Virus record (IMG/VR): IMGVR_UViG_3300032238_001291
Coordinates: 1 to 37,736 of that record
DNA: 37,736 nucleotides
Direction: 5' to 3' (one strand)
DNA from: a virus
Shown here one piece after another: positions 3,432 through 37,673 of the stretch. Position 1 is the first letter of the stretch, and every line of letters starts with the position of its first letter. A program made the position numbers and the translations under genes. The notes under the pieces were generated by a model. The model was not told where the DNA came from. It did not search any database and saw only the letters and a list, made by a program, of their open reading frames with translations.

Positions 3432-3839
3432 TCAACTCCTATCTTTTAAATATAAAATTGCTTTTTCTAAATTTTGGATATTATCTTTAAAATTTCCCAA
3501 TCCTCTATTGCAGTGATTACAGAGCATACCTCTAAATTTTCCATCTTTGTGATTGTGATCCATAACTAAAGAGTAAAGTTTTCCCAAATGTTTATTATTT
3601 TTTGATCCTGCAAATTCGTTTCCGCCACATATATCACATTTATCCTGTTTCTTCAATTTTCTAACTTCATCATCAGAAAGTTGACCTCTAAATTTACCTC
3701 TGTTTATTTCACTTCTATAAGATGCTCTACATTTTCTACACCAACTATCTAATCCATCTAATTTTTTATTGTGGGGAGGGAAACTAATTGTATCTTTTGA
3801 CTTTTCTTCTTTACATTTGGTACAAATCTTAAAGTTCAT
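3432..3839 (-). CDS. Endonuclease VII-like HNH protein (probable free-standing homing-type nuclease)
   Basis: The 135-residue protein has an N-terminal zinc-ribbon-like part (Cys 6, 9, 34, 37) and a C-terminal part resembling the recombination endonuclease VII family: CDIC at 68-71, the catalytic-type DHNH at 94-97 and CNHCN at 107-111, followed by a short helix. T4 endonuclease VII (gp49) has the same Cys pairs around a DHD core and resolves branched DNA. This copy lacks the gp49 C-terminal dimerisation region and sits between virion genes, so a free-standing homing-type endonuclease is more likely than the resolvase itself. It ends six bases before gp17. No clear Shine-Dalgarno precedes the ATG; a late promoter in a hairpin loop lies just upstream. 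Family assignment is firm, role inferred. Confidence 0.85.
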   Translation of the reverse strand: MNFKICTKCKEEKSKDTISFPPHNKKLDGLDSWCRKCRASYRSEINRGKFRGQLSDDEVRKLKKQDKCDICGGNEFAGSKNNKHLGKLYSLVMDHNHKDGKFRGMLCNHCNRGLGNFKDNIQNLEKAILYLKDRS

Positions 3840-36886: not shown

Positions 36887-36914
36887 ATTGTGCCACTTGT
36901 ACTTGTGGCACAAT
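36887..36914 (-). terminator. Stem-loop just after the HNH gene, possible terminator
   Basis: Perfect 10-bp arms (ATTGTGCCAC 36887-36896 and GTGGCACAAT 36905-36914 on the plus strand) with an eight-base loop start five bases after the HNH stop codon. The downstream sequence on the minus strand (CATTTACC) has no long T-run, so termination is uncertain; RNA stabilisation is the alternative. Confidence 0.45.
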
Positions 36915-36918
36915 GGTA

Positions 36919-37344
36919 TCAAGAACCTGTGCTTTCTAAGATGTTATCAAGAACAGCAGATAAGATCTCCACGCTATCGCGATCAGTTTCTTCCAATTGT
37001 TGCATCACATCTTGCAGTTGAGGTAAGATACTGATGACAGTCTGTGGCACCCTGATAATACTCATTTCACCCAGATTCTTATACTTTAAGGGTCTCCCTC
37101 CAACACAACTTTTAGGTCGAAACTTTGAATCTTTCTTAGTCTTTTCAATATGACATTTGTTACATAGAAGTTGACACTTTGCGACTTCTGCTAATAGAAT
37201 CTCTTTTGGTTTGGTATATCCTGCAGCAATATTGAATGACTTTGTAGATGGATCAATGTGATCGAATTCTAATGATTCTTTGCAACCACATTCCACACAC
37301 TTTCCACCCATCTTTTCGATGAGAATTTCCCTTAAATAGTTCAT
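36919..37344 (-). CDS. HNH endonuclease with an extra C-terminal domain, 141 aa
   Basis: Residues 1-75 form a classical HNH zinc domain: Cys 16 and Cys 19, the catalytic-type FDH (His 29) with DPSTKSFNI, and CNKCH at 61-65. Residues 92-141 form a separate segment starting MSIIRVPQTVISILPQLQDV, followed by an acidic helix; it resembles short ribbon-helix-helix-like or cyanobacterial accessory domains, but this is uncertain. It is probably a free-standing homing-type endonuclease whose second domain adds DNA or partner binding. ATG at 37344 has no good Shine-Dalgarno. It is preceded by an 18-bp inverted repeat with a consensus late promoter in the loop, and by a possible six-codon leader frame overlapping its start (ATGA). 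Confidence 0.87.
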   Translation of the reverse strand: MNYLREILIEKMGGKCVECGCKESLEFDHIDPSTKSFNIAAGYTKPKEILLAEVAKCQLLCNKCHIEKTKKDSKFRPKSCVGGRPLKYKNLGEMSIIRVPQTVISILPQLQDVMQQLEETDRDSVEILSAVLDNILESTGS

Positions 37345-37350
37345 AGGTAA

Positions 37351-37406
37351 TTTGTTAGCATAATACCTGATTATTTATATGTTTTTAGAGGTATTATGCT
37401 AACAAA
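37351..37406 (-). promoter_or_regulatory. 18-bp perfect inverted repeat with late promoter in its loop, before the HNH gene
   Basis: The arms TTTGTTAGCATAATACCT (37406-37389 on the minus strand) and AGGTATTATGCTAACAAA (37368-37351) match perfectly, with a 20-base loop. The loop contains TATAAATA (37379-37372). RNA from the early promoter at 37645 would carry both arms; RNA begun about six bases after the late promoter would begin near the second arm and could not form the hairpin. The second arm contains AGG-N4-ATG, a possible leader start. Confidence 0.7.
37372..37379 (-). promoter_or_regulatory. Consensus T4-type late promoter for the HNH gene
   Basis: TATAAATA on the minus strand, an exact T4 late consensus, 28 bases before the HNH ATG and inside the inverted-repeat loop. 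Confidence 0.75.
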
Positions 37407-37442: not shown

Positions 37443-37616
37443 TCACCACCTGTCGGGTGTATCAAGGTCCTCAACATATGCTGAAACCTTCTCTGCTGGT
37501 TCCAACTGAAATACTTTCTCCCAGTCTAGATTATGAGGATCAAAATCACTCATCACCTCAAGTTCTAGCGTGACCCTATAACGCTGCTTCTGTGTCTGAT
37601 GATACGCAACCGACAT
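37443..37616 (-). CDS. Small cyanophage-type protein, 57 aa, unknown
   Basis: The chosen ATG at 37616 is preceded by GGAG eight bases away, which outweighs an upstream in-frame start at 37673 that would lie within the -35 box of the promoter. The protein has a beta-strand start (RYRVTLELEVMSDFDPHNLD) followed by an acidic, probably helical part (WEKVFQLEPAEKVSAYVEDL). No function is recognised. It is the first gene after a strong sigma70-type promoter and so is likely expressed early. Confidence 0.7.
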   Translation of the reverse strand: MSVAYHQTQKQRYRVTLELEVMSDFDPHNLDWEKVFQLEPAEKVSAYVEDLDTPDRW

Positions 37617-37644: not shown

Positions 37645-37673
37645 ACTATAAGATGTCTGGGGGTCATTGTCAA
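37645..37673 (-). promoter_or_regulatory. Near-consensus sigma70-type (early) promoter
   Basis: On the minus strand TTGACA (37673-37668), a 17-base spacer and TATAGT (37650-37645), eleven of twelve box positions matching. It lies 29 bases before the ATG of the 57-aa gene. The spacer contains CCCCC. Host RNA polymerase could use it immediately after infection. Confidence 0.75.

Follow-up and report, generated by a model that had tools for sequence, protein, structure and literature searches.

A late-promoter hairpin in front of an HNH endonuclease gene of a T4-like cyanophage: a probable late-only translation switch

An HNH endonuclease gene in a viral DNA stretch of 37,736 nucleotides (the window, at its full length) is preceded by a perfect hairpin with a late promoter motif in its loop. 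Sequence comparison made it likely that this gene is under a temporal translation switch of the T4 type, by which probably only its late messages are translated. The anatomy of the hairpin, its conservation, the compensatory changes in its arms, the predicted opening of the late RNA and a conserved early promoter upstream make up the observed part of this arrangement.

The window, judged from its sequence to be a fragment of a T4-like cyanophage, encodes a terminase that shares 83–88% identity with its counterparts in Synechococcus and Prochlorococcus myoviruses, and another of its proteins is Gp96 of Kyanoviridae. Late promoters of the form NATAAATA, the cyanophage late motif, are reported for T4-like cyanophages (PMC2984593).

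Anatomy and predicted folding of the hairpin

The features of the region are listed in Table 1. On the minus strand, the order was TTTGTTAGCATAATACCT-CTAAAAACATATAAATAATC-AGGTATTATGCTAACAAA, followed by TTACCT and the ATG of the 141-aa ORF. The two arms were 18 nt each, 100% complementary (18/18) and spaced by 20 nt, so the inverted repeat was indeed perfect, as the preliminary description of this DNA had it. The exact late motif TATAAATA that it had placed in the loop was also there. This motif was not enriched in the window (3 occurrences versus 5.6 expected by chance), and the evidence is therefore its position rather than its presence.

The ORF had been called an HNH endonuclease. This was supported by a family profile (PHROG 4234, E 8e-22), while the score against Pfam PF01844, 18.5 bits, fell short of the 21.4 cut-off. 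The sigma70 promoter proposed upstream, TTGACA-17-TATAGT, matched the consensus at 11 of 12 positions and lay about 300 nt upstream of the HNH ORF.

Table 1. Positions of the hairpins, promoters and genes in the window
Feature	Position	Strand	Remarks
Left (5') hairpin arm	37389..37406	-	missing from predicted late RNA
Right (3') hairpin arm	37351..37368	-	ends 6 nt before ATG; retained in late RNA
Hairpin loop, 20 nt	37369..37388	-	
Late promoter -10 TATAAATA within loop	37372..37379	-	predicted +1 ~37366
HNH ORF, 141 aa: N-terminal HNH nuclease and C-terminal RPLKYKNLG domain	36919..37344	-	ATG at 37344
C-terminal small domain of HNH ORF	36922..37098	-	b-a-a, ribbon-helix-helix-like by pattern only
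57-aa upstream gene, presumed early	37443..37616	-	phrog_12516
Sigma70-type early promoter TTGACA-17-TATAGT	37645..37673	-	putative source of read-through RNA
Second late-promoter hairpin, TTCATACCTTTTCATTAC-ATAAATAATGTAAA-GTAATGAAAAAGTATGAA	3835..3884	-	SD-like AAAAAG and ATG inside right arm
Endonuclease-VII-like HNH ORF, 135 aa, putatively governed by second hairpin	3432..3839	-	

The RNA of the hairpin region folded with z = -5.3, and none of 200 shuffles was equally stable. The predicted late transcript, which lacks the left arm, was unstructured (z = -0.65). For positions -18 to +3, the predicted unpaired probability was 0.13 in the read-through RNA, which is thus mostly closed around the start codon, and 0.61 in the late RNA expected from the loop promoter, which is mostly open there. 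The same predicted rise was found in 69 of 70 distinct units from five groups, for some of which the late start picked by the script is doubtful because the late motif is weak. The predicted late leaders were mostly 11–25 nt long, and that of the window about 22 nt.

The preliminary description had also proposed that the early RNA hides the start. The pairing of -18 to +3 agreed with this, but the start codon itself lay outside the perfect stem, which ends 6 nt upstream of the ATG. Inspection of the sequence revealed no Shine-Dalgarno close to this ATG. What the stem closes is the ribosome footprint, not the start codon. With the AUG outside the stem and no clear Shine-Dalgarno in this HNH family, this suggested occlusion through the neighbourhood of the start.

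We infer from this layout the use of the late promoter, the block of translation and the timing, as follows. During early infection, sigma70 polymerase of the host would transcribe the 57-aa gene and continue into the HNH gene. In this read-through RNA the arms would pair and close the ribosome footprint before the AUG, and the nuclease would not be made. Late in infection, a gp55-type polymerase would initiate at the motif in the loop. The resulting RNA would start in the right arm, lack the left arm, present an open leader and be translated.

Several smaller elements were seen around the gene. The right-arm AGGTATT could instead pair with AATACCT just 5' of the ATG (37345-37368, minus strand). 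This alternative pairing was found in many relatives, was weaker in the window, and could form a small hairpin in the late leader. A perfect 10-bp inverted repeat, ATTGTGCCAC-AAGTACAA-GTGGCACAAT (36887-36914, minus strand), closely followed the stop codon of the HNH ORF and had no U run. A leader mini-ORF (ATG...TATGA overlapping the start; ATGCTAACAAATTACCTATGA in the window) was present in the window, L002, L005 and L011. It was absent from L003, L004, L006, L009 and L012, and was thus not a conserved feature. An Rfam search of the window and four loci at the gathering threshold gave no match.

Conservation and compensatory change

A search of viral contigs produced 143 relatives of the HNH ORF, of which the best 80 were kept. 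Eleven distinct genes, including that of the window, combined the HNH part with this C-terminal domain or with the T[ED]R class of it. All eleven had an inverted repeat at the equivalent place, with arms of differing sequence. The exact arm pair of the window gave 0 matches in the viral contigs. This indicated that the pairing was conserved, and not the sequence.

In this family, the left arm paired on average at 15.7 of 19 positions with its own right arm and at 13.3 with those of the others (0 of 20,000 permutations, which covered ten of the eleven genes). Counted over all eleven, 7 pairs had changed on both sides, versus 0–3 in slid controls, and the covariation score was 0.211 versus 0.101 for shuffled alignments (0 of 500). 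In 29 relatives of the C-terminal part that stand alone (see below), the permutation test of own-arm pairing gave 0 of 20,000, and with the nine unique stems 8 of 20,000.

The preliminary description had counted a loss of complementarity in relatives against its own proposal. A hairpin with self-pairing above cross-pairing was kept in ten of the eleven genes, with compensatory changes; the sole exception was L011, of which the outer stem was degraded. The stem of L002 contained two mismatches, and those of the fusions L012 and L017 were one base pair shorter, in both arms alike. These comparisons indicated that the hairpin is not a product of chance and that its stem is selected as a structure.

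The late motif was poor in three of the eleven loops (L002, TATAATTA; L008, CTATATAA; L011, TATATAAT). Most loops of the T[ED]R type had TATACATA.

Of 49 loci, 40 had a sigma70-like promoter between -287 and -336 relative to the ATG of the unit, and the 57-aa upstream gene was also found in 40 of the 49. The early promoter, the upstream gene, the hairpin and the late -10 in the loop formed a conserved set. Early read-through is expected from the conservation of the promoter and the 57-aa gene with the unit. Two cultured relatives of the upstream gene lacked both the hairpin and the HNH gene, which suggested that the hairpin and the ORF come and go together.

The hairpin lies 36 nt past the stop codon of the 57-aa gene, and might thus be a transcription terminator or 3'-end stabiliser of that gene, unrelated to the HNH gene. 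The terminator reading was rejected for the lack of a U run after the hairpin on either strand. Such a role is also at odds with the late motif kept in the loop and with the fixed distance to the downstream ATG. Moreover, the upstream gene was a different one in L077, L078, L101, L102 and L113 and was not found in L017, and the cultured relatives had the upstream gene without the hairpin. We consider this explanation most improbable.

It is just as improbable that the repeat is a terminal or site repeat of a mobile element, or a homing site, with no regulatory role. HNH genes are often mobile, and the unit was missing from related phages; this presence or absence among relatives was the only observation bearing on homing. 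On the other hand, both arms lie on one side of the gene, in fixed register to the ATG and with the late motif between them, and no further copy of an arm was found, either at the opposite end of the gene or in other places.

Arm sequence and the C-terminal domain

The C-terminal part of the HNH ORF (RPLKYKNLGEMSIIRVP...) also exists alone as an ORF of about 58 aa in many contigs. These ORFs lie directly 3' of 17-bp hairpins, perfect or nearly so, most of which carry (C/A)TAAATA in the loop, and are under purifying selection (median pN/pS 0.37). Stand-alone ORFs of about 55–60 aa (RPLKY or RPKNY) with perfect or near-perfect hairpins were seen at loci L025, L036, L041, L074-L081, L093-L113 and L194-L204. 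The stand-alone protein had no match by tblastn in 50,697 isolate phage records and none in bacterial and archaeal genomes, and the ORF had none in Pfam, PHROGs or NCBIfam.

The HNH module is located between the hairpin and codon 2 of the small gene. The window gene therefore looks like a small hairpin gene into which an HNH module was inserted, or the reverse. The 58-aa protein was modelled as b-a-a (pLDDT 74). Since Foldseek gave a best E of 1.5 and a PDB sequence search nothing significant, ribbon-helix-helix was kept as a guess based on pattern.

The arm sequence tracked the type of C-terminal domain, which makes an additional role of the arms as the operator of an autorepressor possible. 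On this reading, the inverted repeat would be foremost a DNA operator: the C-terminal domain would bind both arms, cover the late promoter and repress its own gene. We hold this to be possible but rather doubtful; such an operator could work alongside the RNA switch.

Among the stand-alone genes, the arm hexamer matched the predicted-strand residues in 37 of 37, in three classes: EM[SN]I with GTTAAC (11/11), xG[VSA]M with GNTA[GT]C (18/18) and T[ED]R[MI] with GTCCC (8/8). The fusions L012 and L017 had led us to expect the third class before it was found. These matches are as expected from an operator. However, the arms and the strand codons are only about 40 nt apart in these genes, and linkage alone can yield such an association, which an HNH module inserted between the two would preserve. 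In the fusions, the EMSI and GVM classes were mixed. The DNA of L012 and L005 was 90% identical in the HNH part and 43% in the strand region of the C-terminal domain, and their stems differed, which again favors an operator.

The arm sequence was absent elsewhere in the searched phage contigs (up to 222 kb) except for two single matches with one mismatch. This suggested that such control, if it exists, would act on its own gene, for which the autorepression of I-TevI is a precedent (PMC2988022). Conversely, an operator does not need 17–18 perfect pairs, and the hairpin was also found before HNH genes without the C-terminal domain. The fold assumed for DNA binding was not supported by the Foldseek result, nor did the stand-alone ORF match any family in the databases named above.

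Tentatively, then, one repeat might do two jobs, as an RNA block of translation and as a DNA operator of the encoded domain. Arms and protein would co-evolve in three specificity classes, both in a stand-alone repressor-like gene and in the HNH fusions.

Other gene families and known systems

The layout on which the late-only translation switch is proposed was found before three further families: the stand-alone ORFs of about 58 aa, a family of 165–169-aa HNH proteins and a family of endonuclease-VII-like HNH proteins. The HNH genes of the latter two are unrelated to that of the window, and so are their stems. The 165–169-aa family (L063-L067, L071, L080) had an unrelated hairpin whose loop contained TATAAATA.

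The hairpin of the endonuclease-VII-like family was present in this window (Table 1) and in about 17 further distinct relatives from metagenomes. The cultured phage S-SRM01 had it too, as a perfect 20-bp stem containing both the Shine-Dalgarno and the AUG. The T4/T5 and A4/A5 lengths of the arms mostly varied together in this family, and distant relatives were without the hairpin. The genes upstream of the second window hairpin are probably late themselves, and the early part of the switch may thus not apply to it. In L125-L127 and L156, the late motif and the right arm were kept and the left arm was lost. These appear to be natural deletions of the putative switch.

In S-SRM01 (MW015081), gene 49 had an 11-bp late-motif hairpin (142259-142300, L122), and weaker ones preceded the psbA-intron endonuclease (207727-207771, L124) and gene 25 (95860-95908, L121). 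In Syn9 (DQ149023), a 15-pair stem around AGTAAATA was seen from 104797 (L207), right where the plastocyanin gene (gp117) starts, with the start codon in the right arm.

In 724 kb of sequence, which included loci chosen for their resemblance to these genes and was therefore not an unbiased survey, 31 distinct stems held TAAATA, all located at ORF starts; for each of six control hexamers, 0–5 stems were counted. The whole genomes of Syn9 and S-SRM01 contained few strong late-motif hairpins.

The principle of the late-promoter hairpin is known from T4 e, soc, 49, I-TevI/II/III and segB and from Aeh1 mobE (PMC2988022, PMC3014915), gene 49 of T4 being a documented case (PMC3014915). The preliminary description knew of none in cyanophages, and we found none described in the open-access papers searched. 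Term searches of cyanophage papers gave no mention of hairpins. The present results would carry this classical control of T4 over to cyanophages, and the evolutionary comparison indicates that the structure is selected. The occurrence in at least four gene families suggests that keeping a nuclease hidden until late may be a general need of genes inside early-transcribed regions, and the cultured S-SRM01 is a phage in which the switch can be tested.

As predicted for the window, the long early or middle RNAs of T4 e, soc, 49 and I-TevI/II/III form a hairpin that hides the translation start, and a late promoter inside its 5' part gives an RNA without the first arm (PMC3014915, PMC2988022). The T4 stems hide an explicit RBS or AUG, whereas the stem of the window HNH family ends just before the AUG and no Shine-Dalgarno is evident. 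The phage family (here Kyanoviridae) and the sequences also differ. A very stable hairpin that stops just before the start region and leaves it uncovered is likewise present at seg43 of Aeromonas phage 25, for which the review gives no late promoter in the loop such as the window has (PMC2988022). Aeh1 mobE and T4 segB are also free-standing endonuclease genes with a hairpin and a late promoter, mobE being of the HNH type; mobE is set in the nrd genes, while the window unit follows the early-promoter 57-aa gene and lies upstream of gene 25 (PMC2988022).

I-TevI, which represses itself, resembles the window gene in that an endonuclease gene has a candidate site for its own product over the late promoter (PMC2988022). 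In the window, the two hairpin arms would themselves form this site. The tracking of the C-terminal domain class by the arm sequence, as it appears in these comparisons, is a feature beyond T4. Should the arms also serve as operators, a single sequence would act both as an RNA structure and as a DNA site controlling the same gene, and this dual constraint could be traced through three natural specificity classes.
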